This document shows, one piece after another, positions 13,201 through 54,444 of a stretch of 54,444 nt of DNA (positions are counted from its first letter, which is position 1; every line of letters begins with the position of its first letter). The DNA comes from Candidatus Zhuqueibacterota bacterium (GTDB lineage: Bacteria > Zhuqueibacterota > Zhuqueibacteria > Residuimicrobiales > Oceaniaggregativiventaceae), in contig WJMF01000216.1 in assembly GCA_014728085.1 (NCBI GenBank), positions 1-54,444 on the forward strand. Reading direction: 5' to 3'. The position numbers and the translations under genes were made by a program. The notes beneath the pieces were generated by a model. The model was not told the DNA's origin and did no database searches. It worked only from the letters and a program-made list of their open reading frames with translations.

Positions 13201-13390
13201 TCCCTGCATGATAAATTCTTTGAATTTACAGCTGAGATCATCTTTTTAGCCGTCAACAGGAGAGATGGTTATTACTGACAAGATAAAAGAATTGTTGAAA
13301 AAACATTCCATGCGATACAGTAGAAAATATTTGTAATTTTTTAGGAATCTTTTCCTTGTCCTGTTCATCTAAGCAATAAAGGGTAGGGCA

Positions 13391-14138: not shown

Positions 14139-14147
14139 AGGATAGGG

Positions 14148-14779: not shown

Positions 14780-14780
14780 T

Positions 14781-14888
14781 ACCGCAAAGCAAACAGACCA
14801 CCAACCCTTTAGAGGGTAGATATTATTCAAATTCATATATCTATATGAACGGCGCAACCAAACATTCAGCGTATCTGTGCTTTGCGGT
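14781..14888. terminator. long-looped inverted repeat between convergent genes
   Basis: ACCGCAAAGCA (14781-14791) pairs perfectly with TGCTTTGCGGT (14878-14888), which is followed by TTTTTT. The 86-nt interval holds smaller dyads (CCCTTTAGAGGG, ATTCATATATCTATATGAA). It lies between the convergent OsmC and barrel genes and could end both transcripts. Confidence 0.45.
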
Positions 14889-14911
14889 TTTTTACACTTT
14901 GAACAATTTCT

Positions 14912-36444: not shown

Positions 36445-38334
36445 ATGATGAAAAAAGTTGATTCATTTTTTAGCTTGTTTCTTATTTGCTGTGCCTTTGC
36501 GACGGCATCGGAACGCTTTCCACTACCTGAAAATTTAAAAACAAATGTAGAGTTTTGGGAAAAAATATATAGTCAATATCCCGACAGTTGTGCTCTTATT
36601 CACGATAAGGATCAGTTGGATATCGTTTATAAGGTGGTCTATCTGGACGATGGACCACAAAGCTGGAAAAAGGTCGAAAAAGAGAAGGATAGAATTATAG
36701 ATGTCCTCAATTCTTTATCGCATCGAATGCCGGATATTGATACGCTGACGCTAAATGATGAAGAACGTTTTATCTATCGATTGTGGCTGGATACGGATGA
36801 TCCCCATAAATTCCGCAAAGCCAGGTACAACATCCGTGGCCAGCTTGGTCTCGCCAACAGGTTTCGTGAAGGACTAATACGCTCTGGTCAATATTTAGAG
36901 AATATTCAGAAGATTTTTCGCCAATATGATTTGCCGGTAGAACTGGCATATCTACCCCATGTTGAGTCGTCGTTCAATCCCAAGGCTTATTCCAAGGTTG
37001 GTGCTGCCGGCATGTGGCAATTTACCCGATCGACTGGCAGGCTTTTTCTGAAAATTAATTACGAACTTGATGAGCGTTTTGACCCCCATTTATCTACTAT
37101 TGCGGCAGCTAAACTTTTAAAAAAGAATTATAAGGAATTAGGAGTCTGGCCTCTCGCGATTACAGCGTATAATCACGGATTATACGGTATGAAACGGGCA
37201 ATAGCCCGAACGGGAACCGACGATATTGGCCAAATCGTTGAACAGTATAAAAGCCGAAGATTCGGCTTTGCGTCCAAAAATTTTTACAGCGAGTTTTTGG
37301 CTGCCAAAAACGTTGCCGCCAACTATGAAAACTATTTCGGCGATTTCAAGCTTGCCAAAGCCCCGGAGCATGAGCTCTATGAGTTGCCGCATTTTGTTAC
37401 GCTAAAGTCTGTTTCCGGCGTTTTTAAGGTTGATATTGATACATTGATCGCTTTAAATCCGGCATTCCGTATACCCGTCATTAAATCTCAACGCCGCATA
37501 CCCAAAGGCTACAAGTTACGTTTGCCATTTCGCGATAATATAGATGTGGAGGATCTTTACAGCCGTCTTAATCCGATTCACAAATATCATCGCCAAATAC
37601 GGGATCGATACTATACGATTCGCCGGGGAGACAATCTGAGTGCGATCGCCCGGCGATACAAAACATCGATTTATAGTCTTATGGCCATGAATGATTTGTC
37701 GGATCCTCATTTTATACGGGCAGGTCAGATTCTCGAATTGCCCGGGTCGGAAAAAAGTATTATTTCTTCGGTTGAAAAAGATGAGATGTTGGGAGGCGGC
37801 CTGAAACCGCATCAAAAAGTTCAAAGTGAAACTATACCCGAGCAGGAAACGAGGCCGGATACGATAATGAGAAAATATCAGAGTTTCCCCTTCAGGGTGA
37901 GCTTTATGGTGCCTTCGGATAATTATATATATGTACAGCCCGAAGAGACCCTGGGACATTATGCAGATTGGCTGCAGATCAACACCCAACGCCTTAGAGA
38001 TGCGAATTCATTGTTGTTTGGTCAGGATATCCAGATTGGTCAGAGAATACGGCTGATCTTTACCAGAGTAGCAGCCAGGGAGTTTCATCGCAGAAGATTA
38101 GAGTATCATAAAAGTATACAGGAAGATTTTTTCAACAATTATAAAGTAAACGGGGTAAGGCATTATTCCGTTCAGTCAGGCGATAATCTCTGGCGGATCT
38201 GCAACCAGCAGTTTGAAATTCCCTGCTGGTTACTCGCACAATATAATCCGGATAAAAAGATTTCAAAACTTTACCCCGGGGATAAGTTGGTCGTCCCCAT
38301 AATTTCAACTTTAATCAGCACAGGGAATGAATGA
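36445..38334 (+). CDS. MltD-like lytic transglycosylase with three LysM domains
   Basis: 629 aa (ATG 36445 or 36448), signal peptide SFFSLFLICCAFATA. The SLT domain at about 160-330 has the catalytic Glu in LPHVESSFNP (~173) and GAAGMWQFTRSTGR. ITAYNHGLYGMKRA, and NFYSEFLAAKNVA follow in the order of MltD/family 1D enzymes. LysM domains lie at about 389-435 (YYTIRRGDNLSAIARRY), 492-540 (weaker) and 573-618 (HYSVQSGDNLWRI). It cuts peptidoglycan to 1,6-anhydro-muropeptides in the periplasm. The 4-nt overlap with a muramidase gene suggests joint wall turnover. Confidence 0.93.
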   Translation: MMKKVDSFFSLFLICCAFATASERFPLPENLKTNVEFWEKIYSQYPDSCALIHDKDQLDIVYKVVYLDDGPQSWKKVEKEKDRIIDVLNSLSHRMPDIDTLTLNDEERFIYRLWLDTDDPHKFRKARYNIRGQLGLANRFREGLIRSGQYLENIQKIFRQYDLPVELAYLPHVESSFNPKAYSKVGAAGMWQFTRSTGRLFLKINYELDERFDPHLSTIAAAKLLKKNYKELGVWPLAITAYNHGLYGMKRAIARTGTDDIGQIVEQYKSRRFGFASKNFYSEFLAAKNVAANYENYFGDFKLAKAPEHELYELPHFVTLKSVSGVFKVDIDTLIALNPAFRIPVIKSQRRIPKGYKLRLPFRDNIDVEDLYSRLNPIHKYHRQIRDRYYTIRRGDNLSAIARRYKTSIYSLMAMNDLSDPHFIRAGQILELPGSEKSIISSVEKDEMLGGGLKPHQKVQSETIPEQETRPDTIMRKYQSFPFRVSFMVPSDNYIYVQPEETLGHYADWLQINTQRLRDANSLLFGQDIQIGQRIRLIFTRVAAREFHRRRLEYHKSIQEDFFNNYKVNGVRHYSVQSGDNLWRICNQQFEIPCWLLAQYNPDKKISKLYPGDKLVVPIISTLISTGNE

Positions 38335-39566
38335 TGAAACGACTGCTTTGTTTGATTTTAATTTTGTTCTTCGTCTCAAGTGCCATTGCAAAAGAAGGGG
38401 TGCTAAGCGGCCTGGATAACCTGGTACAATCCCGTTTCAAGTCGTTGGACGGGCTTTCAGTGGGGTTGATAACAAATCCCACGGCTGTTTCACGCCGGCA
38501 TGTTCACGCAATCGATATCCTTCATAAAGCCCCCAATGTGGAATTGGTAGCCCTGTTTGCCCCTGAACATGGGTTGCGCGGAGACGAGGAAGGTGGAAGA
38601 GAAATATCCTCGAAAACGGATCCGAAAACCGGATTGCCCATATTTAGTTTGTACGGCAAAAACAAGAGTCCGTCGGGTGAGATGCTCGAGGATGTTGATG
38701 CTCTTGTTTTTGATATTCAGGACATTGGAACCCGTTTTTACACCTATATCAGTACAATGTTTTTGTGCATGGATGCCGCTGCCCGGGAGAACAAAATATT
38801 CATTGTCCTGGATCGACCCAATCCCATTAACGGCGTTATTGTTGAAGGCCCTGTATTGGATCTTGAATGCCAATCGTTTGTCGGCATTCAACAAATAGCT
38901 CTGCGCCATGGCATGACTGTAGGAGAACTGGCTTTGATGTTTAATGGTGAAGAGTGGTTGGAAAGTGGCAAGGTCGATCTGAGGATTATTGAAATGAAAA
39001 ACTGGCAACGGCATCAGGTGTATACAGAAACCGGTTTGCCATGGATTAAGCCCTCTCCAAATATAAATACGGTACAGAGTGCTCTTTTATATCCGGGTAT
39101 GGGGCTCCTTGAGGGAACCAATGTTTCGGAAGGACGGGGTACTTTGCAGCCTTTTGAGATCATGGGTGCCCCCTGGATAGATGCTGTTCTTCTCAAAGGT
39201 GAGATGGAGAATAGAAGATTCACCGGCATCAGTATGGATACATGTTCTTATATCCCTGCAAGCATTCCCGGTGTTGCATCCCGTCCCAAATATGAGGGAC
39301 AGGTATGTAAGGGACTTTTATTTCACATCAAAGATATGGAACACTTGAACTCGGTTGAATTCGGAGTCCATTTGCTGTGTGCAATGAAGCAGTTGTTTCC
39401 GGATGATTTTGAGCTACGTGAACAATGGCTATGTAAACTATTGGGCTCCAAAGAGATCACGGCACAATTATCGCTTGGCAGACCTGCAGATGAAATTATT
39501 GCGGCCTGGCAACCGTTACTGGATCATTTTAAAAAACAAAGAGAAAAGGTTTTACTCTATCCCTGA
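38331..39566 (+). CDS. namZ: NamZ-type exo-beta-N-acetylmuramidase (DUF1343, GH171)
   Basis: 411 aa, signal peptide RLLCLILILFFVSSAIA. DUF1343 phrases: GLITNPTAVSR, LFAPEHGLRGDEEGG, GLPIFSLYGK, LVFDIQDIGTRFYTYISTM, VLDRPNPINGVIVEGP, IALRHGMTVGELALMFN and NVSEGRGTLQPFE. The Bacillus member NamZ releases terminal MurNAc from peptidoglycan fragments; the name is used here by family membership only. The start overlaps the transglycosylase stop (ATGA), consistent with a wall-recycling operon. Probably periplasmic. Confidence 0.88.
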   Translation: MMKRLLCLILILFFVSSAIAKEGVLSGLDNLVQSRFKSLDGLSVGLITNPTAVSRRHVHAIDILHKAPNVELVALFAPEHGLRGDEEGGREISSKTDPKTGLPIFSLYGKNKSPSGEMLEDVDALVFDIQDIGTRFYTYISTMFLCMDAAARENKIFIVLDRPNPINGVIVEGPVLDLECQSFVGIQQIALRHGMTVGELALMFNGEEWLESGKVDLRIIEMKNWQRHQVYTETGLPWIKPSPNINTVQSALLYPGMGLLEGTNVSEGRGTLQPFEIMGAPWIDAVLLKGEMENRRFTGISMDTCSYIPASIPGVASRPKYEGQVCKGLLFHIKDMEHLNSVEFGVHLLCAMKQLFPDDFELREQWLCKLLGSKEITAQLSLGRPADEIIAAWQPLLDHFKKQREKVLLYP

Positions 39567-39591
39567 TATCATTATTGGGTAAAAGAACACG

Positions 39592-40863
39592 GTGACTCTT
39601 AAAAGAATCCACAAGAAAACGGAAAACAGCGAATTCGGGCTTTATCCAAGATTGCGCAAAGGCATTGAGGTTGTTTATGCCGAAACGGATGAAAATGAAG
39701 AACTCGTCGGATTAAAAGATAACTGGGGGTTGACGTCTGAAATCATATGGCTGTCACCGGATATCTACTATATGTTACAGTATTTTGATGGTATGCATTC
39801 GCATATGGATATGCAACAGGCCTACAAAAAAAAATTCGGTGAATTTCTTTTTAAAAAAACACTGGATGATCTTATCAGTGTTCTGGATGAGCACTATCTT
39901 CTGGACAATTCCCGCTCAGAGCGTCAAATTTACGAGTTGAACAAAGTTTATTCCCTGCAACCCTATCGCTATCCGAAACATGCCGGTGTTTGCTACAGCG
40001 ATGATCCGCAACAATTGTCTAAACAAATCGATCAATATGGCAAGGAAATGCCCGTAAACAGAACCCTTGTCAATTCTGTGATTAACCTGGATATTTGTGC
40101 TGCAATTATTCCGCATATCGATATTCGCCTTGGGGGAGGTGTATATGCCAATGTTTATAAAATTTTGTCTCAAGCCCGGCCAGCTGATGTTTATATTGTT
40201 CTTGGTATCGCTCACCGCGGTCTTCAGAATCTTTTTACCCTTAGCAATAAGAATTTTCAAACCCCGTTTGGAATTGTCAAAACGGATAATGAAATCATAG
40301 ATTCTATTCGGTCGGATTGTGACTTTGATGTTTTTGCGGACGAGTGGAGTCACGGATATGAACATAGTATTGAATTCCAGACTATTTTTCTTCAACACTA
40401 TATCCATTCAGAGTTTAAAATCGTTCCGGTTCTCACTTCGTTTCCTCATACTGTATTTCAAAACGAAAATTCTTTAGAGCATTCCAGTTTTTGTGATTTT
40501 ATCAGAGCTATCCAGCGTGCCGTTGAAAAAAGCGGTAAAAGGGTTTGTTTTATCGCCTCTGTGGATTTCGCCCATGTCGGTCCGGCATATGGCGGTCCCG
40601 AGAATATGACCTCCAAATTCCGCGTTAAAGTGGAACAAAATGATAAATTGATTCTGGATGCCCTGTCAAAGCGGGACATTAAATTGTTTCATCAACTCAT
40701 TGCAGAATATGATAATCCATACAGAATATGTGGTTATTCCGCTCTGATCTCCCTGTTGTATTGTCTGCAGGGGGACGGAAAGGGAGAATGCCTGGCCTAC
40801 GAAGGGGCCAGGATGGATGATCAGGTTTCGCTGGTCACATTTGCAGGCATGATTTATAAATAA
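39592..40863 (+). CDS. Memo-family protein with N-terminal extension
   Basis: 423 aa from GTG 39592 (ribosome binding site weak). Residues 1-125 form an extra domain with a winged-helix/PqqD-like look (WLSPDIYYMLQYFDG, FLFKKTLDDLISVLDEHYLL). From about 129 a Memo domain (PF01875) follows: AGVCYSDDP, AIIPHIDIRLGGGVYANVY, VLGIAHRG, EHSIEFQTIFLQHY, SVDFAHVGPAYGG, CGYSALISLLY. The His and Asp residues used as metal ligands in Memo proteins are present. The family resembles extradiol dioxygenases and is often called AmmeMemoRadiSam system protein B; its reaction is uncertain. No AMMECR1 or radical-SAM partner lies next to it. 25 nt after namZ. Confidence 0.87.
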   Translation: MTLKRIHKKTENSEFGLYPRLRKGIEVVYAETDENEELVGLKDNWGLTSEIIWLSPDIYYMLQYFDGMHSHMDMQQAYKKKFGEFLFKKTLDDLISVLDEHYLLDNSRSERQIYELNKVYSLQPYRYPKHAGVCYSDDPQQLSKQIDQYGKEMPVNRTLVNSVINLDICAAIIPHIDIRLGGGVYANVYKILSQARPADVYIVLGIAHRGLQNLFTLSNKNFQTPFGIVKTDNEIIDSIRSDCDFDVFADEWSHGYEHSIEFQTIFLQHYIHSEFKIVPVLTSFPHTVFQNENSLEHSSFCDFIRAIQRAVEKSGKRVCFIASVDFAHVGPAYGGPENMTSKFRVKVEQNDKLILDALSKRDIKLFHQLIAEYDNPYRICGYSALISLLYCLQGDGKGECLAYEGARMDDQVSLVTFAGMIYK

Positions 40864-41624: not shown

Positions 41625-42713
41625 TTATCTTAAAAAGAGCATTTTTCGGGTTGAAATCTCTGAATCGCTTTTCAGGCGATAAAAATAGGTACCCGAGGCA
41701 ACGGTCTCACCAACCTCATTGCGACCATTCCAAACGCTGGTATGATTTCCAGCTCCCACCATTTCGGAGAGCAGGGTTGCCACTTTTTCTCCGGTGAGGG
41801 AATAAATATCAAGTTGGACATGGCTGTTTTCTTGTAGCCGAAAGCCGATTACGGTACGGCTATTAAAGGGATTGGGATAATTGGTCAGCAGCTCGGATTT
41901 TTCGGGCAAAGACGACAAAACCTCTACAGCGTTGTAAAGACATGTATTGCCGTTATAATCGATTTGTACGAGTTGATAATAATAGGTTTCCCCGTTTTTG
42001 ATGTCCTTGTCGACAAAAGAATACGAGTGTTCAATTTGAGAGTCACCCGCACCCGGTATCAGTGTTGCATTGATTTTTACAAACCCGTCATCAGGATGAG
42101 TAGACCGTAACAAATCAAAACCCATACAATTGGTCTCGGTGGCTGTCGTCCAGTTCACATGTATACCATTTTGATGCTGAAGCGCCGTGAAACCTGTCAG
42201 TTCAACGGGCACCGGGAATGTCCCCGGCTGAATCCAGGTAAATTTGTATTTGATAAAATTATCTTCCCAATCGTAGATACTGGTATAATGTGACAGATCC
42301 CATTGTATACCCGAAACCGCTTCGCGGTTGAGTATTTCAAATAAAAGCCGAATGACTCTTGTCGGGGCAGATGGTATGGCCACTCCCTGTTCTTTTCCGG
42401 TGCGGACGATATGGACCATCACCCTGGGTGCATGATCTTCCGGATAGATTTGCAGGTAAGAAGGAGAATAATCCGCATCCCATAAACCATCATAGCGACT
42501 ATCCTTGCCGATAAAACTGAGGGCCTGATCATTATACTGCAGGGACAAAACAGCGTCGCCCAATCGGTCGGGGATGCCGCTTGTTGTTTCGAACAAAAGA
42601 TCAACGACAAGGGTATTATCCGCTACAATTTGCTGAATGGTTGCCTGATATGTCTGGGGAGTCCCCTGACCGGCAAGCAATGCAATGATAAAAAGCATTT
42701 TAACCACTTTCAT
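41625..42713 (-). CDS. T9SS cargo with cohesin-like N-terminal domain
   Basis: 362 aa from ATG 42713, chosen for GGGAGG upstream and a signal peptide (MLFIIALLAGQGTPQ). N-terminal ~20-165 is a beta-sandwich resembling cohesin-like domains (LVVDLLFET, LGDAVLSLQYNDQALSF, TRVIRLLFEI). An FN3-like region (~175-270: PVELTGFTALQHQNGIHVNW, TETNCMGFDLLRS, YYYQLVQIDYNGNT) and the T9SS sorting module (~279-362: YPNPFNSRTVIGF to VASGTYFYRLK) follow. The C-terminal half is shared with 46395, 49238 and 52521. It should reach the surface through T9SS. Dockerin-bearing neighbours make a cohesin-dockerin pairing worth testing. Confidence 0.85.
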   Translation of the reverse strand: MKVVKMLFIIALLAGQGTPQTYQATIQQIVADNTLVVDLLFETTSGIPDRLGDAVLSLQYNDQALSFIGKDSRYDGLWDADYSPSYLQIYPEDHAPRVMVHIVRTGKEQGVAIPSAPTRVIRLLFEILNREAVSGIQWDLSHYTSIYDWEDNFIKYKFTWIQPGTFPVPVELTGFTALQHQNGIHVNWTTATETNCMGFDLLRSTHPDDGFVKINATLIPGAGDSQIEHSYSFVDKDIKNGETYYYQLVQIDYNGNTCLYNAVEVLSSLPEKSELLTNYPNPFNSRTVIGFRLQENSHVQLDIYSLTGEKVATLLSEMVGAGNHTSVWNGRNEVGETVASGTYFYRLKSDSEISTRKMLFLR

Positions 42714-42892
42714 TTTTATACCTCCCAATAAAAAAAGTGAACTCGCTGTTTCATTGGGCGGACAAAATTGTAAACAAAGGAAGGATAATAGGGATGGATA
42801 CGATGGCGGGATGGTTTTTCTTGATGCCCAATTACAATTGTTGTCCTGCTGAAAAGCGAAGTTGCCAATCCAATCGTCAAACCTAATCGCCA

Positions 42893-42921
42893 ATTGTAAT
42901 ATATTTAATTAATATAAACAA
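42893..42921 (-). promoter_or_regulatory. sigma70-like promoter of the cohesin-like gene
   Basis: On minus: TTGTTT (42916-42921), a 17-bp spacer and TACAAT (42893-42898). It lies about 180 bp before ATG 42713, leaving a long 5' leader. Confidence 0.45.
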
Positions 42922-42951
42922 TGCCAGTAAAAAATCTATGTGGAGGGCAAA

Positions 42952-45900
42952 TTAGTGTAAAGGAATATAAATATAGTTGTTATGCCATAGCAGGTAATCA
43001 CGTGTCGTGACGATGCCGTCTCCGTTGAAATCCTCATGGATATAATTTGATTTTTCCTTAAGGGCAGCCTGGAACCATAAGGAATAATCATCCAGATTCA
43101 ATATACCATCCTGGTTGGCATCACCCGCTCGCATGGCCCAGAGACTTTTGCCTATTTTTTTTATATTATTTTTAGTTTTAACATTTTCCGGAGTATATCT
43201 GAGATCAACTTCACAAAGGAAATCATTGCTCAGAGTGATAGATGACAGTTCGCAGGGCATATGATTTCTGTGTTTGATCACGATATCATACTTTCCCGGC
43301 TGCAGATCCGGCTGTAGATAAGATGACAAGGTTTCAGGAGAGAGGATGTTTCCAAATTGATCCAGTAAAAAATGATGGGTAAAAGTCGAGCCACCTTTAA
43401 TGAAATCTATGCTGATCCAGTCGACAATATCATCAGCTAACTCTTGTTGCTGCAACACAGATGATTGATGGGGGGATTCGGCAGTAAGACTTTTTCGGCT
43501 GAGAGCTGTTTCCATTTTTTCCTTTTTTTGATTATAGAAACCTTCAAGGACAAGTGACAGTTTTAGGTAAACGACCTGTTGATCGATGATTTCGAACTGC
43601 TGCACAGGGGCATATTCTGAAACCGCCCCGGCACCATCTATCGCCTGAACGCTCCAATAATACTTGCCGGCTTTCAAATAGAGACGCCATCGGGTATTCA
43701 AATTTATATTTCCCGGCAGAGAATGATCAGAAAAAGCATTTTGGGGGGAATAAATATCCGCCTTGCCGGGTGCTGTGCCGACGCGAAGATTATAGCTCAG
43801 AGATTGTTTTGGTGTTTTATCATCATGAGGGGCTTGCCAGCTAAAGGTAACGCTCTCTCCTAAAGCCATGGCTTGCAATTGTGCCGGCGCGGCAGGTGGA
43901 TTATTGCTCTCAGAGGTTTTGTTGTAATATATTTTGTTAATGCCGCCTTTACCGACGAGCATAAAGTCGCATTTTGTATCTTGATCCACATCCAGAAAAG
44001 AAAACACGCCTCCATTGACGCCGTGAGGGGAAAATGTTTTTTCCCATTCATTAGCCGATTTGTTATGATAGATAGCGGAAAAATATTGGCGGGGAACATG
44101 TTCTCCGGTGATAAACAGATCTGGAAATCCATCATTATCGTAATCGTTCCAGGCAATATCTCCCCCGGCATAGTCGGCAAAGTCGATGCGGGAAAAGCCT
44201 GTGCTCTGAGTGAGGAATTGGTTACGGTAAAGCAGTACCTTTGATCCCTGATCCGATTGCCCCATTATTGCCAAATCTGCGTCTCCGTCCAGATCGTAAT
44301 CCTGCCAGGCAAATCTGGCAAATCTCATAGCGTCAAAATTGACTTGCGCCTCCGTGAAGGCTTTAGCGCCGGATGTTTCTCTCAATGTATTCAAATATAA
44401 ATTGACAAAACCGTTGCCGGAAAGATCAGAACCGGTAATGAACAAATCTTTATCCAGGTCCCCGTCAATATCCAGCCAGGCGCTTTCACCGTATAAGCGA
44501 CCATTGATACCGGTTTCAATTTCTTCGAACCTCAAAGAAGAGGATTGCAAAGATGTATTTAAATATAAAAACGTTGCCGGTGTCTCTTTATACAAGCCGC
44601 AGATGAATATATCTATATCACCATCGTTATCAATGTCCTCGGCGGATATACATCCGTTGGTTACACCTTTAACAGCAGGGTCGATTTTAATAAAGCCGGA
44701 AAAATGGTTTTGTTCGCTGTTGTTTATGTATATCAAAGTCTTGTAGTTATTGGTATACAGTCCTGAAATCAGCAAATCTTCCAGACCATCCCCGTTGATA
44801 TCCGCCAGAGTAGCACAGCCTCTTGTTGGTGGAATAATATGATTGGGCATAGACATAAAAGTCTGATTATTCGAAGCAAGATAGGTTCTGATGGCATAGG
44901 AATTGGAATGATTAGAGCCTGTTGTCAATATATCCATGTTACTGTTCGCATCCAAATCCACGGACCGGATATCCTTAAAATCCAGAACCGGAGAATCGGA
45001 GAAAAGTTCCTTCTCCTGAAAATCATGGAAATAGAGAGGATTCAGGGTAGCATCTCCTGAAAGGATCATACCATAGATCCATTTTGGTGATTCTTGGGGA
45101 AATTTTTTAATGGTTTCATTAAACCAAAGCCTGAAAGCTGTTCCAAAATTTTCGCCGTCCCCCAGGTATTTGTATAGATTTTTTTCTTTATAAAGCCCGC
45201 CGGTCTTGCTGCTACCCCAACTCAGCAAAGTCGGGGAATCCGGGTTAAAGGTGAGAATATTTGCCAGATTATTGGTTTGGATAAAGTCACTCGAAGAACA
45301 GATATATAGAGAATAGAAAAAAACTTGTGGATCACTTTCAACATAGTCCGAAACATTGACGCTATTATAGAGAGTTTGGCCATTTTGATAGAAAGCATGG
45401 GCTTGATAGTTACCATGCGCTCTAATATGCACGAGCTCATAAAGTTGTAAAAGGTGGGTCTGGACGTAATTTGTCCGATTGGTCTCTTCGGAATAATTCA
45501 CCGTTACGATCTGATTTTCAGGATAGATTTGGGAAAAATTTTCTTTATCTCCGGCTGCAAGGGTACTCCAATCATCGTCATTGTAGATCAGAACTTTGTG
45601 GGGATAATTTTTTGTTTTACGATAATGATCATTTTTAATGAAATACGTGTTTAATAGTTCTGTTTCCCCGCCAATAAGCGGCAAATTATCGGTTTTGATT
45701 CTGCTTACCCATATTTCCAGTGATTTATCGCCGCTATGCGTATCGAGTTTGTTGTTGTTGGATCTAAGCATTCCCTCATTTCTTGAATCTTCCCATACAC
45801 CATCCAAATCCATAAAATAAAGATCACAAACGAAATCTTCAAACGCCGGGGCATAATGGTTGTTGTTGTCCTCCCAACTCTGCATCATTTCATAAATAAC

Positions 45901-46311
45901 ATAGGGTAAATTGCCTATCAGAATAGCACCTTCGAGGGATTGTTCACTCTGATATAGGGTTGTCAGGTATAATTTCAGATTTTCCGCTGTGCCTGAACCG
46001 AAGGTGGATACGAGTATCGAGTAGCCGTCCGCAGCAAGTCCCTTTGCAAACACATCCAGTGTATTTTCGATATCCGTGTATACATCGGCATCCACAATCA
46101 CACAAATTCTCCTGTTGCCTTTGTTGTATTTTTTCAGGGGTTGAATATTCTGCAGCTGATACGTTGCCTTCCCGGTGTTGTAGGGTTCATGGGCAGGCCT
46201 GGCGGTTTGGTCGACGGTGATCCACCGGCTGGTTACCGGATTGCTATCCGTTTGGGCGAGCGAAACGCTCAAAAAGACAATCAGGAGGAACTGTGTGATT
46301 AGATTTTTCAT
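42952..46311 (-). CDS. clan-CD (C25/caspase-like) protease-like surface protein with FG-GAP repeats and C-terminal dockerin
   Basis: 1119 aa from ATG 46311, where a signal peptide begins (NLITQFLLIVFLSVSLAQ); the ribosome binding site is weak. A caspase/gingipain-like domain covers about 45-425 (RRICVIVDADVY, AILIGNLPYV, VHIRAHGNYQAH with His-Gly ~299, YSLYICSSSDF with Cys ~338, SWGSSKTGG), giving the His/Cys dyad of clan CD. FG-GAP/VCBS units follow at about 455-810 (ADINGDGLEDLLISG, DIDNDGDIDIFICG). An FN3-like part (~830-930) comes next, then a dockerin at about 1060-1115 with two calcium loops (GDANQDGILNLDDY, DFNGDGIVTTRDY). No T9SS sorting module. Surface attachment by dockerin is an inference. 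Confidence 0.85.
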   Translation of the reverse strand: MKNLITQFLLIVFLSVSLAQTDSNPVTSRWITVDQTARPAHEPYNTGKATYQLQNIQPLKKYNKGNRRICVIVDADVYTDIENTLDVFAKGLAADGYSILVSTFGSGTAENLKLYLTTLYQSEQSLEGAILIGNLPYVIYEMMQSWEDNNNHYAPAFEDFVCDLYFMDLDGVWEDSRNEGMLRSNNNKLDTHSGDKSLEIWVSRIKTDNLPLIGGETELLNTYFIKNDHYRKTKNYPHKVLIYNDDDWSTLAAGDKENFSQIYPENQIVTVNYSEETNRTNYVQTHLLQLYELVHIRAHGNYQAHAFYQNGQTLYNSVNVSDYVESDPQVFFYSLYICSSSDFIQTNNLANILTFNPDSPTLLSWGSSKTGGLYKEKNLYKYLGDGENFGTAFRLWFNETIKKFPQESPKWIYGMILSGDATLNPLYFHDFQEKELFSDSPVLDFKDIRSVDLDANSNMDILTTGSNHSNSYAIRTYLASNNQTFMSMPNHIIPPTRGCATLADINGDGLEDLLISGLYTNNYKTLIYINNSEQNHFSGFIKIDPAVKGVTNGCISAEDIDNDGDIDIFICGLYKETPATFLYLNTSLQSSSLRFEEIETGINGRLYGESAWLDIDGDLDKDLFITGSDLSGNGFVNLYLNTLRETSGAKAFTEAQVNFDAMRFARFAWQDYDLDGDADLAIMGQSDQGSKVLLYRNQFLTQSTGFSRIDFADYAGGDIAWNDYDNDGFPDLFITGEHVPRQYFSAIYHNKSANEWEKTFSPHGVNGGVFSFLDVDQDTKCDFMLVGKGGINKIYYNKTSESNNPPAAPAQLQAMALGESVTFSWQAPHDDKTPKQSLSYNLRVGTAPGKADIYSPQNAFSDHSLPGNINLNTRWRLYLKAGKYYWSVQAIDGAGAVSEYAPVQQFEIIDQQVVYLKLSLVLEGFYNQKKEKMETALSRKSLTAESPHQSSVLQQQELADDIVDWISIDFIKGGSTFTHHFLLDQFGNILSPETLSSYLQPDLQPGKYDIVIKHRNHMPCELSSITLSNDFLCEVDLRYTPENVKTKNNIKKIGKSLWAMRAGDANQDGILNLDDYSLWFQAALKEKSNYIHEDFNGDGIVTTRDYLLWHNNYIYIPLH

Positions 46312-46336
46312 TGGTTCGCAATCGTTAATCAAAGAT

Positions 46337-46374
46337 AAAACCTGCAGCATGCTGAGCAGAATGCTGCAGGTTTT
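46337..46374 (-). terminator. strong hairpin, terminator or leader element
   Basis: Perfect 14-bp arms AAAACCTGCAGCAT (46337-46350) and ATGCTGCAGGTTTT (46361-46374), a 10-nt loop and a TTTTATCTTT tail on the minus strand. It sits 20 nt after the stop of gene 46395-48983 and only 25 nt before the start of gene 42952-46311, so it could also control the latter. Confidence 0.75.
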
Positions 46375-46394
46375 ATAAAGAACATCTCTCGATC

Positions 46395-48983
46395 CTATTT
46401 AATAAGAATCATTTTTTGCATCTGTTCAAAGTCATTTACTTTCAGTGAATAGACATAGGATCCGCTCGGAACAACTGCTCCCGATGCATCTGTTCCGTCC
46501 CAGGAAATGGTATGATACCCTGAGGGCATATTGCTGGTGACAAGTTCTTTTATCTTTTGTCCCTGGGTATTATAAATACTCAAATTTACAAAGCCATCTC
46601 TCTGAAGATGAAAACGTATTTTTGTGTTCATATTAAAGGGATTTGGGAAATTTTGCTGAAGCTGATAACTCTTCGGCGCACTCGGGTTTATGCTTATGGG
46701 ATCGTGAAACATCTGATCGCCGGCATAGCTCAAATCAGCCAATTTATAATAAACGGTTCCCTCCAACGGAGAATCATCGATATAACTGTAGAAATGTTCT
46801 GCCTGGCTGTTGCCCGCACCGGCGATAATTTCGCGGGTGATTTTTTTGAACGGTCCTGAACGGGAGGTGGCTCTGTAGATATGAAAGCCGGCGTTATCGG
46901 TTTCGCTAAAGGTTCTCCATTCAAGCTTAACCATCCCGTTAACCAATGTTGCTGTAAATGAGGTTAATTCTACGGGGATCAGGGTATGTGTTTGTGCGGA
47001 GGCGGAGTTGTTATCAATATTCGGATCTTTATTTTCAGCGGAGACAAACACATTGTTATCCATGCCGCCGAGTACCTGATCATTTGCCTGGGCATAGATC
47101 GTAATTGAAATTTGTTCATTCACGTCGAGATGGTCAAAATTCCAGATAAGGGGATTTGGACCAGCATCGTTTGCCGGGGTAGCATGTTGAAAGGTGATGC
47201 CTGCCGGCAAATCGTCGATAACCTGAATATTTTCTGCCGGATCGGGGCCGAGATTGATGACAGTAATGGTGTAATAAAAGAATTCTCCCGGCGTAAGATA
47301 TTTTTCGCTAGCGCTTTTGGAAACTCGTAAATCAGAGATTTTTTTGCGAATCAATCCGGCGTCCCATTGTAGTTGTGATTCGCCCTCAACCATGGTAAAG
47401 TCTATTGTCAGACCCGTATTCGGATCCGGATCAGAATCGAGGTCATCATTTGTTCCTATGTCTTGAGAGGTGAAAAAGGAATTTTCAGCCGGCATGAATT
47501 CGATTCTATACTCTCCGGCCATGACATTGACGAAAAAATATTCACCATCGACATTGGTAGTTGTGGTGGCGAGGATATTTCCACCCGGGTCCAGGAGATT
47601 GACATCAATCCCTGCAAAGCCGGGTTCTCCTGCATCCTGTAAGCCATTCTGATTCAGATCTTCCCAGACTCTGTCTCCCAGGAGCCAGTCTTCATCCTCG
47701 ATCTGATTCATATCACAGTCTTCTTCCGGATCATAAGACCCTCCCATGGCATCTTCGTATTCAACGGTTGCACAGTTTTCAAATGAACCGCTGGCATCAT
47801 TCCGGACGCGGTAGGTCAAAGAGAGGTCTATACTTTCAGAAGGCGCGAGCTCGTTCAGCGACCAGGTTACCAGGGTATTTCCGTTCGATGCCACGCCGCC
47901 ATGACTGGCTGAGATAAACTCGATATGGGAGGGTAGTTCATCCGTTACCATAACGTGATAAGCTGTTGCTGCCCCGATATTGGTCACCCGAATGGTATAG
48001 GTATATTCACCATTCGGTTCCACCACTGTTTCTGAATCATTCTTGTCGATGTTCAGCTCCGGATATTGCATCTGATCGGGAAAAGGTGGAGGATAAAATA
48101 TAATCTGATTGAGGTTTTCGAGCTCTATTTCTGCTCGCCAACGGCCCTGCTCCGGGGTATAAAAAATATCTCCGCCGCTCGTCGGAAAATCTACCGACGG
48201 AGGGTCGGAATTCCAGACATTATCATCGGAAGGTATACCGGGTGTTATATCCCCGGATGGATTTATAATATCATAGCGATCTACTTTATCGAAATTGGCA
48301 TCCATGTCGAAATTGTAGATGTGCATTACATCCATCAAAGGCACATAAAAGTCGACGACTATGGTTTCCGTTGGATCCGGGGTAAGTACCTGCAGACAGG
48401 CTCTCTCGGAATAAATAAATATTTCATCTCCACTCTCTGTTATCCCATCGGGGTCCTCTTCCTGAATGCGCAGTTTGTATCCGTTTTCATCATCTCTTTC
48501 CGTCCACACTTCCAATCTGTAAATCCCGCTTCCATAGGTGCCGATTGCTTCGGTAAAAAGATTGACCCAGCTTTCCGACGTTGTTGCTTCGGGTGCAAAG
48601 GTTAAAAAAGCAATTTGAGTACCGTTTGGTGAAAGAACTCTAAAATAGGTATCATCCCACCTGCCATTGCCTCCAATTCTCGGGGGATCTATTTCATCAA
48701 GATCATTATCGGTACGAAACGATTCGGGATCAAAAACATCCATTGTCAGCACAAAGGATGGAGATACCGATTGCGGTACCACGATTTTATACAAGTGAGT
48801 GGTATTGCCGTGATGTCGGTTGGTCCACCAGTCCCCGTTATTGATTTCGGAATAGCTTCCATTGGTTTGAAAGTAGCCATAATTATTTTCACTTTTGGGA
48901 TAGATTTGTTGTCCTGCCGGAAGGATAGCAACATTTACCAGGATGCTAAATCCCATCAAAAGCATGAGAACGGACTTTTTCAT
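46395..48983 (-). CDS. T9SS cargo with DUF11, SdrD_B-like and FN3-like domains
   Basis: 862 aa from ATG 48983, set by GGAGG upstream and the signal peptide (VLMLLMGFSILVNVAILPA). N-terminal ~300 residues are unassigned and beta-rich. Then DUF11 (~305-430: EPNGEYTYTIRVTN), an SdrD_B-like domain (~431-542: GDRVWEDLNQNGLQDAGEPG, NVDGEYFFVNV), a second DUF11 (~547-645), the shared FN3-like region (~660-750) and a T9SS sorting module (FPNPFNMNTKIRF to VPSGSYVYSLK). These are wall- or surface-adhesin style modules that make stalks. The C-terminal half is paralogous to neighbouring cargo. Confidence 0.88.
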   Translation of the reverse strand: MKKSVLMLLMGFSILVNVAILPAGQQIYPKSENNYGYFQTNGSYSEINNGDWWTNRHHGNTTHLYKIVVPQSVSPSFVLTMDVFDPESFRTDNDLDEIDPPRIGGNGRWDDTYFRVLSPNGTQIAFLTFAPEATTSESWVNLFTEAIGTYGSGIYRLEVWTERDDENGYKLRIQEEDPDGITESGDEIFIYSERACLQVLTPDPTETIVVDFYVPLMDVMHIYNFDMDANFDKVDRYDIINPSGDITPGIPSDDNVWNSDPPSVDFPTSGGDIFYTPEQGRWRAEIELENLNQIIFYPPPFPDQMQYPELNIDKNDSETVVEPNGEYTYTIRVTNIGAATAYHVMVTDELPSHIEFISASHGGVASNGNTLVTWSLNELAPSESIDLSLTYRVRNDASGSFENCATVEYEDAMGGSYDPEEDCDMNQIEDEDWLLGDRVWEDLNQNGLQDAGEPGFAGIDVNLLDPGGNILATTTTNVDGEYFFVNVMAGEYRIEFMPAENSFFTSQDIGTNDDLDSDPDPNTGLTIDFTMVEGESQLQWDAGLIRKKISDLRVSKSASEKYLTPGEFFYYTITVINLGPDPAENIQVIDDLPAGITFQHATPANDAGPNPLIWNFDHLDVNEQISITIYAQANDQVLGGMDNNVFVSAENKDPNIDNNSASAQTHTLIPVELTSFTATLVNGMVKLEWRTFSETDNAGFHIYRATSRSGPFKKITREIIAGAGNSQAEHFYSYIDDSPLEGTVYYKLADLSYAGDQMFHDPISINPSAPKSYQLQQNFPNPFNMNTKIRFHLQRDGFVNLSIYNTQGQKIKELVTSNMPSGYHTISWDGTDASGAVVPSGSYVYSLKVNDFEQMQKMILIK

Positions 48984-49173
48984 CACGAGCCTCCTTTTTA
49001 AGAGAAAAGTGTTGACTCTATGCCACAATAGATAGCGGCACGGGGGTCACTTTTTTGTTAAGATCTTTATAAAACAACTACTTAGGTTTGTTGTTTTTCA
49101 ACCAATTGTTAAAATGCAATTAGTATGCCATTCGCGGAATGGGCAGGAGGCCTGTAGAAAAGGGGAGGGATAA

Positions 49174-49210
49174 AAAAAGGGTTACCTTTATGGTAAAGAT
49201 AACCCTTTTT
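49174..49210 (-). terminator. terminator of the 51815-49238 operon
   Basis: Arms AAAAAGGGTTA (49174-49184) and TAACCCTTTTT (49200-49210) with an inner CTTTA/TAAAG pairing. On the minus strand it ends in a T-run. Confidence 0.85.
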
Positions 49211-49237
49211 CATTTGTAGCAATTATTGTGTCGGGAA

Positions 49238-50401
49238 CTAGCGCAACAGCTGCATCCTTTGTACTTTAGAAAAGTTGTTGGCTTGCATTCGGTAAAAATA
49301 AGTACCGCTGGAGACATGTTGACCGTTGTTGTCTTTCGCGTTCCAGACAAGATCGTAAGAACCCGGTTTCATTTGACGGTTGACCAGGGTACGAACAAGT
49401 TGTCCGGCCATATTATAGATGCTGATATTGACGATTCCCGCCTCTTTGACCTTGTACTTGATCGTGGTTTCCGGATTGAAGGGATTGGGAAAGTTTTGTT
49501 CGAGCGCATATTCTTTGGGAGCGGTGACTGTGGTGGAAACCACATCGTGTGTCATCATATTGCCGTTATAGTCGACATCGACCAGGCGATAGTATCGTTT
49601 TTCTCCAACTTCGCCGGATTCATCGGTAAAGGAGTAATCGCGGCCATTGTTGTCGGTACCCAGTCCACCAATCATCTGGCTGTTGAGACGCGTAAAGGGT
49701 CCCTCTTCACTATCGCTGTACTCGACATAAAAACCGGCATTGTTGGTTTCTGAAGCGGTCACCCATTGCAGGTTTACTTCGCCATCTACAGATTCAGCAG
49801 AAAATGATGCCAGTTCGACGGGGACCACCTGTGGGTTTAGCGTAAACCCGGTCAATTCTGGTGAAATTGCCAACTCCTCTCCTTCAATCCGTTCAGATGC
49901 CGGAGTAAAAATAACCCATATTGGGGGCATTGGATCGGGAAACCAGTCGACTTTTCCGGCGTTTTCAGCTGTATTATACATCACACTTATGGTGACGATT
50001 CTGAGCCAGTCCTCGGTAGGGGGTATATTGATAAAATCTCCACTACCGTGTTGATAAATAAAATATATCCACGTGCTGTCATCAAGAATGTTATAGGTTT
50101 CCGAGGTATAATAACCTTCTCCTGAGGGATCAGTATCTCTATTCGGAAAAAGTTGATTTGTAAAGTAAATTGTATCCAACTGCGCAGATAAATGTTCACT
50201 GAGTTTAAATGCATTCTGGATCGCTCGTACATTATAGGCTGTTCCATCACCTTTAATCTCTACATCGAATACCAGCTTGCCTTTTAAAGTTGTTGGATCG
50301 GTAAAGTTACTTACAAAGTTTAGTCTCGTATCTATTTCTGCAAATGATATATTTGCAAACGCGACCAGGAACAGAACCAAAGATATCACTTTTTTATGCA
50401 T
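49238..50401 (-). CDS. T9SS cargo protein with short N-terminal beta domain
   Basis: 387 aa. AGGAGGT precedes ATG 50401 and the signal peptide is VISLVLFLVAFANISFA. The N-terminal domain (~22-190: LNFVSNFTDPTTLKGKLVFD, TISVMYNTAENAGKVDWF) resembles a cohesin-like beta-sandwich but diverges from its neighbour's. The FN3-like region (~195-295: PVELASFSAESVDGEVNLQW, TNNAGFYVEYSD, YYRLVDVDYNGN) and sorting module (FPNPFNPETTIKY to VSSGTYFYRMQ) follow. Starts 31 nt after the stop of 50433-51815, so both are in one operon. Function unknown. Confidence 0.87.
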   Translation of the reverse strand: MHKKVISLVLFLVAFANISFAEIDTRLNFVSNFTDPTTLKGKLVFDVEIKGDGTAYNVRAIQNAFKLSEHLSAQLDTIYFTNQLFPNRDTDPSGEGYYTSETYNILDDSTWIYFIYQHGSGDFINIPPTEDWLRIVTISVMYNTAENAGKVDWFPDPMPPIWVIFTPASERIEGEELAISPELTGFTLNPQVVPVELASFSAESVDGEVNLQWVTASETNNAGFYVEYSDSEEGPFTRLNSQMIGGLGTDNNGRDYSFTDESGEVGEKRYYRLVDVDYNGNMMTHDVVSTTVTAPKEYALEQNFPNPFNPETTIKYKVKEAGIVNISIYNMAGQLVRTLVNRQMKPGSYDLVWNAKDNNGQHVSSGTYFYRMQANNFSKVQRMQLLR

Positions 50402-50432
50402 AATATTTACCTCCTTTATTTACAATATTGTT

Positions 50433-51815
50433 TTATGGTAGCGGATTGTCACCAGGAAGATTGTCGTCAGTGGTGATAAAGGTAAACCTACCACTACCTT
50501 TTTTCGTCCATGTGTCATCGAACGAATCGACGAATCCTGTCAGATCATAATCGGCTCTATAATAGCCCATTAAGCCACTTCGTTGCAGGGTATATTCTGA
50601 ATCAAATGAATCGAGGAAATTCATTGACTGTGCAAAGTCTCCATCACCAGTCAATATCGCATACACTTCCTGAGGTGCAACCGTGCCGGCGAGTGTAACC
50701 TTTTCGGTTGTTACACCATCATCACCGAGTGGAGCTGCGAAATTTGTTTTTACATTCATCAGGTCTAGTGGTGTAGTGCTGTCATAATTGCCCAATTGGA
50801 TTTGGACAGTTATTGCTGCAAGGTGTGATTTATGCCTGATGACAAGATGTACATCCTGAGTTGTGGGAACATTTTCTATAGGCATGCCTGAACTGCCATT
50901 TACATCGACTATATCCCCTGATTTGGTGATTATGGCACTTCCCTCAGCCAAGGTTGTTGCATTTCCGGTAGGGCTTCCATCGCGAACATAGACATAAACC
51001 CAATCTACAAAATGATCTGGTATGGGAGAAAGGCTAATGGATTTGCCATCACCAAAGGGTGACGTCGCAGGCATAGCCTCTATTCCCATTTGACCAAAAA
51101 ACAGGCGGTAATGGGCATGCATCACATCACCGGACGAACGGGTTTCGTCTAGATATGGATTTACGGAAATGGGTACATGCGCGGCTCCTTTCAAACACAT
51201 TTGTGCAAACACACGCGCAATCTCTGCCGGTCCAAAAAACCAAAAAGAGGCACCACTCGGAACCGTAGCCGATGTGGCTGATACCGGCGATGTTGAACCA
51301 CCCGGCTGATACCAGGTTTCGTCCGTGCCGTCATCCATCCAGACATGAACGGGATCGCTGCTGACGCCGTCATTGGTGGCATGAAAAGCGACCATAAGAT
51401 CGCGTGTAATGTTGCTGCCTCCGCTATAGTTGACCTGATAATAACGGCGGCCTTCAGCGTTGCCGGAGCCGTAACCATGGGGATCGGTTGACGGACTCGT
51501 AAAACGCATTACTGTCGTCGCTTCAGCTATATTTGTTTGCGGAGCCCAGCCGGCAAAACCCGAGTGGCTGGTTCTTTCATCTGAAATGATCTTTCCCCAT
51601 ACATAGCCGTCTGTTTCTACCAGGTCACCGCTCAGTTCGATGAACACCGGGTATTTATCGTTTGGATTGTCCGGATTGGAAGGATTCGAACCCATTGCAT
51701 CATCCCATTCCAAAACGACTTCCATACCACCACTCAGCTCCAGATCAACGGAAGCAGATGCAGTGAATGCGATTACCAACAGCATCGCCATGCATAATGT
51801 AAATAATTTTTTCAT
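50433..51815 (-). CDS. exported surface protein with dockerin-like C-terminal loop
   Basis: 460 aa. AGGAGG precedes ATG 51815 and the signal peptide is LFTLCMAMLLVIAFTASA. The mature protein is Gly/Ser/Asp-rich and beta-rich, with HAHYRLFFGQMGIEAMP in the middle. Near 415-440 a calcium-loop-like segment YYRADYDLTGFVDSFDDTW resembles a dockerin half or the DxDxxG loop seen in FCB surface proteins. No T9SS sorting module, unlike its operon partner. I do not recognise the main domain. Confidence 0.75.
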   Translation of the reverse strand: MKKLFTLCMAMLLVIAFTASASVDLELSGGMEVVLEWDDAMGSNPSNPDNPNDKYPVFIELSGDLVETDGYVWGKIISDERTSHSGFAGWAPQTNIAEATTVMRFTSPSTDPHGYGSGNAEGRRYYQVNYSGGSNITRDLMVAFHATNDGVSSDPVHVWMDDGTDETWYQPGGSTSPVSATSATVPSGASFWFFGPAEIARVFAQMCLKGAAHVPISVNPYLDETRSSGDVMHAHYRLFFGQMGIEAMPATSPFGDGKSISLSPIPDHFVDWVYVYVRDGSPTGNATTLAEGSAIITKSGDIVDVNGSSGMPIENVPTTQDVHLVIRHKSHLAAITVQIQLGNYDSTTPLDLMNVKTNFAAPLGDDGVTTEKVTLAGTVAPQEVYAILTGDGDFAQSMNFLDSFDSEYTLQRSGLMGYYRADYDLTGFVDSFDDTWTKKGSGRFTFITTDDNLPGDNPLP

Positions 51816-52520: not shown

Positions 52521-54444
52521 TTATTTGATAAATTCCATCATGCGGCTCTCTACCCGATCATCAAATTTCAGTTTGTAGATGTAAATGCCGCTTGCCTGAA
52601 TCCTGCCATTGCTGTCCATGCCATCCCAGATTACACTGTGACTTCCTGCATTGAGACTTTGGGAAACCAGGGTTCTTACTTTTTGTCCTTTCATGTTGTA
52701 TATGGACAATGTACAGAACCCATTCTTTTGCAGGTGGAATCTGATCGTGGTCTCCGGGTTGAACGGATTTGGGAAATTCTGCTCCAGACTGAATTTCTCC
52801 GGCAAGGAGGCTTCTACGCTGATTGGGCCATGATAGACCTGCTGACCATTATAATTGAGATCAGCGAGTTTGTAGAAATAGGTCTTGCCAACCTTGATCT
52901 CATCATCGGTATAGGTATAATGATTTATCCTTTCAGAATTGCCGGCGCCGGGAATCAGCGTTGAATTCACGCGTTTATAGTCGCCGTTTTTCTGTTCCGA
53001 GCGGTAGAGATAGAATCCCAGATTATTGGTTTCAGACTGGGTGACCCAGTTCAGAACCACCATACCGCCATGAACCTGTGCCTGAAAGGATGAGAGCTCG
53101 ATCGGATATTCTACCGGACAGAGATTGGGATCATCGTGCAAGACACCGGTCAGGTCTTCATTCATTTCACCAAGAACTTGATAGGAAGCATTTGGAATAT
53201 GCGGTTGCGCCCATCGAATACAGCCGGTTTCACCTTCTGCAATATCGTAATCGACCTGTACCAGCAGAATGCGTTGTTCACTGCCGTCAAGAGTCAACAG
53301 CGAGCCGGTACCGTTGTATTGATAACCGAAGGTTATGGTTTGGGCCACCAGGTCTTCCGTTTCGTTGCCGACACCGGTATAGTTGCTAAAGTATTGATCG
53401 GAATAGGTGAATACCGGATTCAAAGTCGGCAAGGTCGAGTCGAATTCGATGACAGGATCATAGAGCGTTATTAAATAGGTGTTCCCATCTGTAGCCCAGG
53501 CAACAACCTCGAAAGTGAGGTGACCGCGGCCACCGGGTCCTTCGCTCTGATCATTATTGATCAGCCGCAGCATCGAATCGATCACTCCGCCAGTTCCGCC
53601 CCGGGTAACGGTCGGATCATCGTCCTGGCCGGTATCCGGATCATCGGTGGGTTCAGGATCGGTTTCATCGCTATCGACAAAGCCCTGGTTTTCGATTTGC
53701 GAAACGTCGGCGGTTACGGTGACGCTAAACGTTACCGTCACTGTAGCGCCGGCAGCCATAGTACCGATATCGATTTGTATTGTGGGGCTCTGTGAAACAA
53801 TTGTACCCTGTGTTGTGGTAATTGTACCGGCGACCAGACTGGTGTTGTTCGGAATATCGTCGGTAAAGACGACATTATTGGCCGCTTCGCCACCCGAGTT
53901 GACGATACTGATGGCATAGTCGATTTGATCACCGACCGAGATCATTCCGTCACTGTCCAAGTCGGTCCAGGTATCGTTCTTTTCGGTCTCCTGAAAAGAG
54001 GCTCCACCCGTGGTGATCGTCGGATCATCATCCGGAGTCGTATCGGGATCATCGGTTGGTTCGGGGTCGGTTTCATCGCTATCCACTTCACCCTGGTTCT
54101 CGATTTGGGCGACATCGGCTGCCACAATTACGCTAAAAGTAATCGTAACAACAGCGCCTGCGTTCATCGTGCCGATATCGATTTCCATAATCGGTTCGTC
54201 ATTGACGATGGTTCCCTGAGTGGTGCTGATCGAACCCGCAACCAGGCCGGTATTGGCCGGGATTTCATCGGTAAAGACGACATTGTTTGCGGTTTCACCG
54301 CCAGAGTTGGTGATAACGATGGTATAGTCGATTTGATCACCAACCGAGATGGTACCGTCGCTGTCATTATCGATCCAGGAATCGGTTTTTTCGGTATCCT
54401 GAAAAGAGGCACCGGCTCTGGTGACAGTGGGATCGTCGTCTTGA
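52521..54444 (-). CDS. T9SS cargo with tandem DUF11-like repeats (5' end outside window)
   Basis: The frame is open to the right edge, so the start is missing; the ATG at 54188 is internal to a repeat. At least 640 residues. Two 136-residue repeats occur, each with DDDPT(V/I)T, GASFQ(D/E)TEK, ISVGDQIDY, NVVFTD(E/D)IP, TTTQGTIV, IDIGTM and SDETDPEPTDDPDT. They resemble DUF11-type stalk domains. A cohesin-like domain (GGRGHLTFEVVAW, QRILLVQVDYDIAEGETGC) follows, then the shared FN3-like part (PIELSSFQAQVHGGMVVLNW, YYTD-type strands) and the sorting module (FPNPFNPETTIRF to QASGIYIYKLK). Probably a long surface stalk or adhesin. Confidence 0.87.
   Translation of the reverse strand, partial: QDDDPTVTRAGASFQDTEKTDSWIDNDSDGTISVGDQIDYTIVITNSGGETANNVVFTDEIPANTGLVAGSISTTQGTIVNDEPIMEIDIGTMNAGAVVTITFSVIVAADVAQIENQGEVDSDETDPEPTDDPDTTPDDDPTITTGGASFQETEKNDTWTDLDSDGMISVGDQIDYAISIVNSGGEAANNVVFTDDIPNNTSLVAGTITTTQGTIVSQSPTIQIDIGTMAAGATVTVTFSVTVTADVSQIENQGFVDSDETDPEPTDDPDTGQDDDPTVTRGGTGGVIDSMLRLINNDQSEGPGGRGHLTFEVVAWATDGNTYLITLYDPVIEFDSTLPTLNPVFTYSDQYFSNYTGVGNETEDLVAQTITFGYQYNGTGSLLTLDGSEQRILLVQVDYDIAEGETGCIRWAQPHIPNASYQVLGEMNEDLTGVLHDDPNLCPVEYPIELSSFQAQVHGGMVVLNWVTQSETNNLGFYLYRSEQKNGDYKRVNSTLIPGAGNSERINHYTYTDDEIKVGKTYFYKLADLNYNGQQVYHGPISVEASLPEKFSLEQNFPNPFNPETTIRFHLQKNGFCTLSIYNMKGQKVRTLVSQSLNAGSHSVIWDGMDSNGRIQASGIYIYKLKFDDRVESRMMEFIK
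53615..54444 (-). repeat. tandem 408-bp coding repeats
   Basis: The string CTGAAAAGAG recurs at 53991-54000 and 54399-54408, 408 bp apart, and the surrounding sequence matches throughout. The unit encodes 136 residues. The array continues beyond the window edge. Confidence 0.8.

Follow-up and report, generated by a model that had tools for sequence, protein, structure and literature searches.

Contig WJMF01000216.1 of Candidatus Zhuqueibacterota bacterium (assembly GCA_014728085.1) probably encodes a two-part surface-display system, in which cohesin-like heads anchored through the type IX secretion system (T9SS) hold proteins that end in an X-module–dockerin (XDoc) module. We call the whole contig of 54,444 nucleotides (C145 of a 5.19-Mb genome in 244 contigs) the window, and name its genes by their first coordinate. 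Two XDoc genes, 42952 and 50433, are each followed by a gene for a T9SS-tailed protein with a cohesin-like head, 41625 after a gap of 59 bp and 49238 after a gap of 32 bp. The first gene of such a pair would supply a Sec-exported protein with a C-terminal XDoc and no T9SS tail, and the next one a small Sec-exported protein combining a cohesin-like head with a T9SS type A tail. The cohesin-like protein would be exported and fixed at the cell surface by the T9SS, of which PorU is encoded in the genome; there, we infer, its head would bind the XDoc of its neighbor in a calcium-dependent manner, and the peptidase-C25-like and other XDoc proteins would then be held at the surface although they have no sorting signal themselves. 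An earlier note on this DNA had proposed that T9SS-anchored cohesins display dockerin proteins here, and this proposal gains support from the domain make-up of the proteins, the predicted XDoc fold, the same-strand gene pairs, the co-occurrence of module and head across genomes and the exchange of the module with the T9SS tail.

Predicted XDoc modules and cohesin-like heads

The 42952 and 50433 proteins have in common a C-terminal module of ~210 residues. Read directly from the sequence, the C-terminus of 42952 contains two canonical EF-type calcium loops, DANQDGILNLDD and DFNGDGIVTTRD, whereas the last ~200 residues of 50433, which align with the 42952 module, hold one degenerate loop and one fair loop; because the degenerate one is the first calcium loop, 50433 is not clearly a two-loop protein. 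Its module scores 176 bits against a profile whose training set includes it. Pfam Dockerin_1 reaches 14.4 bits on 42952 in one search and 20.6 bits in another, under the cut-off of 22.9, so that Pfam alone would overlook this dockerin. The module-family profile matched 37 Protein Data Bank (PDB) sequences at E ≤ 1, via its C-terminal third and mostly dockerins; the best match is 8x39, named a serine protease (E = 4e-6), and the best named dockerin follows at 5e-5. When Dockerin hits were read in context, the conserved C-terminal stretch was found in both window proteins and in ten further proteins of the genome, which holds 13 full module copies, a further copy truncated at a contig end and a 47-residue match. 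Twelve aligned copies belong to the training set of the module profile. Dockerin_1 matches 10 of 12 module members at E ≤ 0.1, and no other Pfam family was matched by many of the 12.

The 42952 module was modeled with AlphaFold2 (AF2) from an 18-row alignment, yielding a predicted local distance difference test score (pLDDT) of 88.7, a predicted template modeling score of 0.86 and helices at residues 162–173 and 192–202. The eight best entries returned by VIA-align are all cellulosomal XDoc structures (Z 9.5–10.4 over 141–147 residues at 3.2–3.8 Å), led by 4wi0_B (Z 10.4, 145 residues, 3.7 Å); they are followed by a zymogen domain (Z 5.7) and by carboxypeptidase D domains (5aq0 and 1qmu, Z 5.1–5.3). 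Foldseek likewise returned three matches at E ≤ 0.001, all of them cellulosomal XDoc chains, with 4wi0_B as the best (3.6e-5), and the module shares 12–19% identity with solved XDoc structures. According to the available text of PMC5141474, the X-module resembles carboxypeptidase D domain II (1qmu) and stabilizes the dockerin, and type II dockerins contact the cohesin with both helices. Because of these fold matches and this description, we interpret the stretch before the dockerin as an X-module-like domain: in the model, an X-module of carboxypeptidase-D-like immunoglobulin fold is joined to a dockerin, and the C-terminal module of 42952 is thus predicted to be an XDoc. The earlier note had placed a two-loop dockerin at the end of 42952, which the canonical loops, the profile matches to PDB dockerins and the modeled fold bear out, and a dockerin-like loop at the end of 50433, which is also found. 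One correction applies: in both proteins the dockerin appears as the end of a larger X-module–dockerin module.

The T9SS tails are distributed as the earlier note had described. Against TIGR04183 (Por_Secre_tail, cut-off 23 bits), 41625 scores 35.0, 46395 27.5, 49238 38.1 and 52521 33.0 bits, and the same search detected no T9SS tail in 42952 or 50433. The genome encodes PorU (910 bits, cut-off 420), and T9SS tails number at least 150 in it (of 219 candidates, 150 were scored).

By sequence, the heads of the T9SS-tailed proteins found beside module genes make up one loose family. No window protein matches Pfam Cohesin (PF00963) at E ≤ 1, and the head of locus L126 scores 23.1 bits against its cut-off of 24.1; since the cut-off is not reached, we name these heads cohesin-like rather than cohesins. 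A 60-row head profile built without window sequences recovered 41625 at an independent E-value of 2.4e-15 and 49238 at 1.7e-6; 52521 itself was matched at 0.015 and its relative in genome G046 at 1.5e-6. With an earlier 15-row profile of non-window heads, the values were 1e-7 for 41625 and 3.2 for 49238, and 52521 was not found. Profile A10, made from 61 of 70 non-redundant heads (nine were left out), gave four matches at E ≤ 5 among 177,635 PDB sequences, all cohesins with E-values of 0.17–1.2 and none significant alone, and among 24,736 Pfam families Cohesin was the one matched by the largest number of heads (5 of 61, best 9e-5). The heads therefore appear related to cohesins, and the cohesin-like domains proposed by the earlier note stand by the head profile (for 52521 by way of its G046 relative), short of the Pfam cut-off. 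The heads of L127, L123 and L119 were left out of profile A2, as was that of L134, which is near-identical to L133. Head alignments A3, A5, A6, A7 and A8, with the window heads out of register, were dropped and the three-row alignment A9 was used.

Gene pairing, co-occurrence and tail exchange

In loci fetched regardless of partner (L118–L137), the module gene usually adjoins a gene for a T9SS-tailed, cohesin-like-headed protein of 270–450 residues. Downstream of 104 module genes we counted, on the same strand, 30 genes with both head and T9SS tail and 34 further module genes, five more module genes at contig or region ends lying outside the 104; for 369 other genes of these regions, the corresponding count of same-strand head-and-tail genes was two. 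Regions L231–L246 were chosen for the presence of both module and head, which biases that part of the count. The 30 module–head gaps range from −67 to 493 bp and 24 of them are under 60 bp.

Module and head also occur together across genomes. Among 82 genomes of the window's phylum, the module was found in 33, the head in 34 and both in 30, so that a head is present in 30/33 module-bearing genomes versus 4/49 module-free ones; without the 12 genomes that had supplied head sequences the figures are 18/21 versus 4/49 (Fisher 3e-10). In two of the module-free genomes, G002 and G036, the head matches cover the second part of the profile only and may reflect a common linker; they were kept in the counts. 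The second sample comprised 395 Bacteroidota-type genomes, from the phylum of a Melioribacteraceae metagenome-assembled genome (MAG; G083), none of which had entered the head-profile training. Here the module was detected in 55, the head in 22 and both in 19 genomes, that is, a head in 19/55 module genomes versus 3/340 others (3e-15), and of the 41 head matches, 22 have a listed module match no more than 1 kb away. Both p-values ignore kinship between genomes, which are not independent. The co-occurrence in two genome samples and the conservation of the six-gene order in G046 go beyond chance. In a single genus, module and head are both present, though not as neighbors, in G076 and G077 and both absent from G074 and G075. 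Twelve of the Bacteroidota-type module genomes without a detected head were inspected; in 11 of them a T9SS-tailed gene of 270–452 residues stands directly downstream of the module gene (tails of 15–74 bits), and in one it does not. Pairing and co-occurrence therefore suggest that the head protein mediates XDoc attachment.

Distances between XDoc modules correlate with distances between the paired heads at r = 0.65, compared with 0.47 for the rest of the same partners (28 pairs); the partial correlations are 0.56 and 0.29, respectively, and none of 2,000 permutations was as high, in an exploratory comparison that controls shared ancestry in part. This bears on the idea that unrelated surface proteins share an operon here, the XDoc being a calcium-stabilized cap and the heads binding, for example, a substrate, with no mutual contact. 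The heads do fall under the Pfam cohesin cut-off, as that idea would have it, and the six-gene order could reflect simple co-regulation; yet the pair recurs with different cargo, also in the second genome sample, the distance correlation is stronger for the head than for the rest of the partner, and adaptor proteins combine head and XDoc, all of which makes such an operon very unlikely.

The C25-like protein also bears on what the module does. Of nine aligned family rows, six match Peptidase_C25 (PF01364), the best at 6.7e-13. No Peptidase_C25 match at E ≤ 0.1 was obtained for the window domain, and a PDB sequence search with the domain alone or with the nine-row profile found no peptidase; the His and Cys motifs are present in it. 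Assignment of this domain of 42952 as peptidase C25-like is thus supported through its sequence relatives, as is the clan-CD protease-like character that the earlier note had given it. The domain was matched in 11 of the 82 phylum genomes, the window's own included. Relatives end in the XDoc module in G000, G045, G046 and G047; those of G001, G003 (a weak match), G063, G072 and G073, all of which are module-free genomes, have a T9SS tail instead. XDoc and T9SS tail thus replace each other on C25 relatives, and we therefore propose that both serve surface attachment.

The same exchange could be read differently, the XDoc-like C-terminus being a sorting signal in its own right, an additional class of T9SS C-terminal domain, and the heads separate adhesins. 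Consistent with this, no more than 20 residues separate the module from the end of the open reading frame (ORF) in 81 of 82 module ORFs of the fetched loci (some cut by contig ends, with a few duplicates, such as L081 and L121 from the same contig), it occurs together with a T9SS tail in one of the 82, it takes the place of the tail on C25 relatives, and some proteins end in an X-module alone. However, the fold matches XDoc binding modules, this reading would leave unexplained why the module pairs and co-occurs with T9SS-tailed cohesin-like heads, and the sole module ORF with a T9SS tail (L123_3550_5745) carries part of an X-module, without a dockerin, plus that tail. We consider a sorting signal of this kind improbable.

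Several observations weigh against the two-part display that we favor. The genomes in the co-occurrence tests are related, 36 of the 55 module-bearing Bacteroidota-type genomes lack a head by profile A2, and four of the 11 downstream tails score just 15–19 bits. The window's own genome has 13 full modules and four heads, G010, of the window's phylum, has a module without a T9SS neighbor at the place inspected, and the C25 relatives of G080 and G056 have neither XDoc nor T9SS tail. On the side of the module, the remaining four of five AF2 models averaged pLDDT values of 59–64, the first loop of the 50433 dockerin is damaged, and some Bacteroidota-type MAG proteins (L083, L084, L085 and L087) end in the X-module alone, with no hidden dockerin past the stop in three frames at the places inspected. 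On the side of the heads, none in the window reaches Pfam Cohesin and the AF2 model from the three-row alignment A9 has a pLDDT of 40.9.

The six-gene neighborhood and other XDoc and cohesin proteins

From 41625 to the contig end, the minus strand carries six genes, all found where they had been placed before and transcribed in the order 52521, 50433, 49238, 46395, 42952 and 41625 (Table 1). The start of 41625 at 42713 was inferred from the signal peptide, and the 42952 ORF spans 42952–46350, with 46311 as the probable start. The full order is also found in G046, five such genes in G045 and two in G047. The 50433 protein, for which the Pfam scan of the window proteins matched no family, has a relative in G045, and the SdrD-B/DUF11 protein of 46395–49028 is kept beside the C25-XDoc gene in G045, G046 and G047. 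Three genes at 36445–40863 (36445, 38331 and 39592) lie beyond the unit, as they do in G045 and G047; since the same three genes adjoin it there, the neighborhood appears to be old on that side too.

Table 1. Features of the six-gene unit in the window
Positions	Strand	Feature	Basis
41625..42713	(-)	Cohesin-like protein anchored by a T9SS type A tail; signal peptide, head at 42207-42653 and fibronectin-like linker	
42952..46311	(-)	Peptidase-C25-like protein with FG-GAP repeats (1.3e-20, Pfam) and C-terminal XDoc	
42955..43578	(-)	X-module and two-loop dockerin of the C25-like protein; residues modeled by AF2	
45019..46311	(-)	Peptidase-C25-like domain; His motif HIRAHG, Cys motif ICSSS	Alignment A11, Pfam of relatives
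46395..49028	(-)	T9SS-tailed SdrD-B/DUF11 surface protein, located between both pairs	
49238..50401	(-)	T9SS-anchored cohesin-like protein; head 49820-50338	
50433..51815	(-)	Secreted protein with C-terminal divergent XDoc 50469-51080; N-terminal part without assigned family	
52521..54443	(-)	DUF11 repeats, cohesin-like head 53103-53582 and T9SS tail; truncated by the contig end	

Several proteins of ~400 residues combine an N-terminal head with a C-terminal module; one of these head-and-module proteins (G044:C104) has a Pfam cohesin over the cut-off. In the window's own genome, L056 15821–16732 (C185) encodes an adaptor-type head-and-module protein, cut by the contig end, directly behind another module gene. 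Three tandem cohesin-like heads are present in an 841-residue protein at L238 5780–8305 (G280:C23), in which the profile used detected no T9SS tail. By analogy, the head-and-module and three-head proteins recall adaptor and multi-cohesin scaffoldins. The 10 own-genome XDoc proteins that were scanned include one GH123 protein, beta-helix proteins, one lectin-like and one FG-GAP protein, and no cellulase family was found among them at E ≤ 1e-3. The viral contigs searched gave no relatives of head or module, and the plasmids searched gave no module match.

Two Pfam cohesins were found in the genome at E ≤ 1, both on contig C205. One belongs to a 2413-residue T9SS-tailed protein with dockerin-like pieces (L061, C205:51000-70900, 7639–15746), and the other to a 276-residue protein beside it (C205:47676-50954); PorU is encoded ~8 kb away on the same contig. 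Conceivably, the XDoc proteins dock on such cohesins rather than on the window heads, given that the C205 pair are the only Pfam cohesins detected in the genome at that threshold and that the larger protein bears a T9SS tail. Pfam cohesins, however, occur in 71 of the 82 phylum genomes, including most module-free ones, and do not track the module as the A2 heads do; they were rejected as the partner that tracks the XDoc module, and we give docking on the C205 proteins hardly any credence. Pfam cohesins reach 31 matches per genome, many of them in tandem in ~2,200-residue ORFs of module-free genomes, where they perhaps represent a different cohesin–dockerin system.

Relation to known attachment systems

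Among the closest counterparts are the clostridial type II cohesin–XDoc complexes (2b59, 4wi0, 5k39 and 5g5d), which likewise have a C-terminal X-module followed by a two-loop dockerin, a cell-surface partner with a cohesin-like domain and adaptors with both. They differ in that the anchor here is a T9SS tail and in that the XDoc sits on the cargo itself, not on a scaffoldin. Clostridia are Gram-positive, and their surface protein is not known to have a T9SS anchor. Non-cellulosomal cohesin and dockerin modules, scattered outside cellulosomes, are said to have been described by Peer et al. in 2009; unlike these, the pair described here recurs as a two-gene unit in which the partner is fixed. 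With T9SS type A anchoring (Por_Secre_tail, TIGR04183; PorU) the system shares the heads' own route to the surface, whereas the XDoc proteins, without a tail, would be attached at second hand. The earlier note had also suggested a cellulosome-like arrangement, a likeness that applies to the attachment step: the cargo in the window is peptidase-like, and we found neither a cellulase nor a multi-cohesin scaffoldin there, the cohesin-like heads being single and no carbohydrate-binding module (CBM) being detected by Pfam.

The nearest published counterpart, in the available text of PMC8542988, is a cellulosome-like complex of Ca. Stygibacter (Cloacimonadota). Its secreted enzymes, a C25 gingipain-like peptidase among them, end in dockerins, and a 3,755-residue scaffoldin has tandem cohesins, CBMs and a conserved C-terminal domain (CTD) for surface attachment. 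Secreted proteins with C-terminal dockerins, among them one that is C25 gingipain-like there and C25-like by its relatives here, and a surface-attached protein with cohesin or cohesin-like domains occur in both. That system has one large scaffoldin, whereas here single-head anchors each adjoin an XDoc gene, in other phyla; the X-module, the gene pairs and the tail exchange do not figure in the available parts of its description (PMC8542988). A 2018 paper states, in the text available, that its genome had no cohesins or dockerins, consistent with other Bacteroidetes genomes (PMC5831590), and the accessible portion of PMC3534657 reports none in its genome or cellulase genes. In our literature search, which most subscription journals lay outside, the one description of surface-CTD-anchored cohesins together with dockerin proteins that we came across is that of PMC8542988, as far as its available text goes. 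The XDoc–cohesin-like T9SS pair is apparently a new and widespread variant of the known cohesin–dockerin attachment, one that is easily overlooked because both halves often score at or under the Pfam cut-offs.

A more far-reaching version, which we regard as possible though doubtful, is that the XDoc protein, once folded in the periplasm, attaches there to the head of its T9SS-tailed partner and crosses the outer membrane with it. If true, the T9SS would export a two-protein cargo with the signal on one partner only, and XDoc and partner would be an export and anchoring device across KSB1-type and Bacteroidota-type genomes. For the two-part display itself, recurrence of the gene pair in many distant bacteria suggests a widespread way to hang enzymes on the surface, and hence a second, combinable way of placing them on the surfaces of T9SS bacteria. 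The route by which tailless secreted proteins arrive at these T9SS-type surfaces, and what keeps them there, becomes testable, and the pairs would supply new cohesin–dockerin partners for display work.

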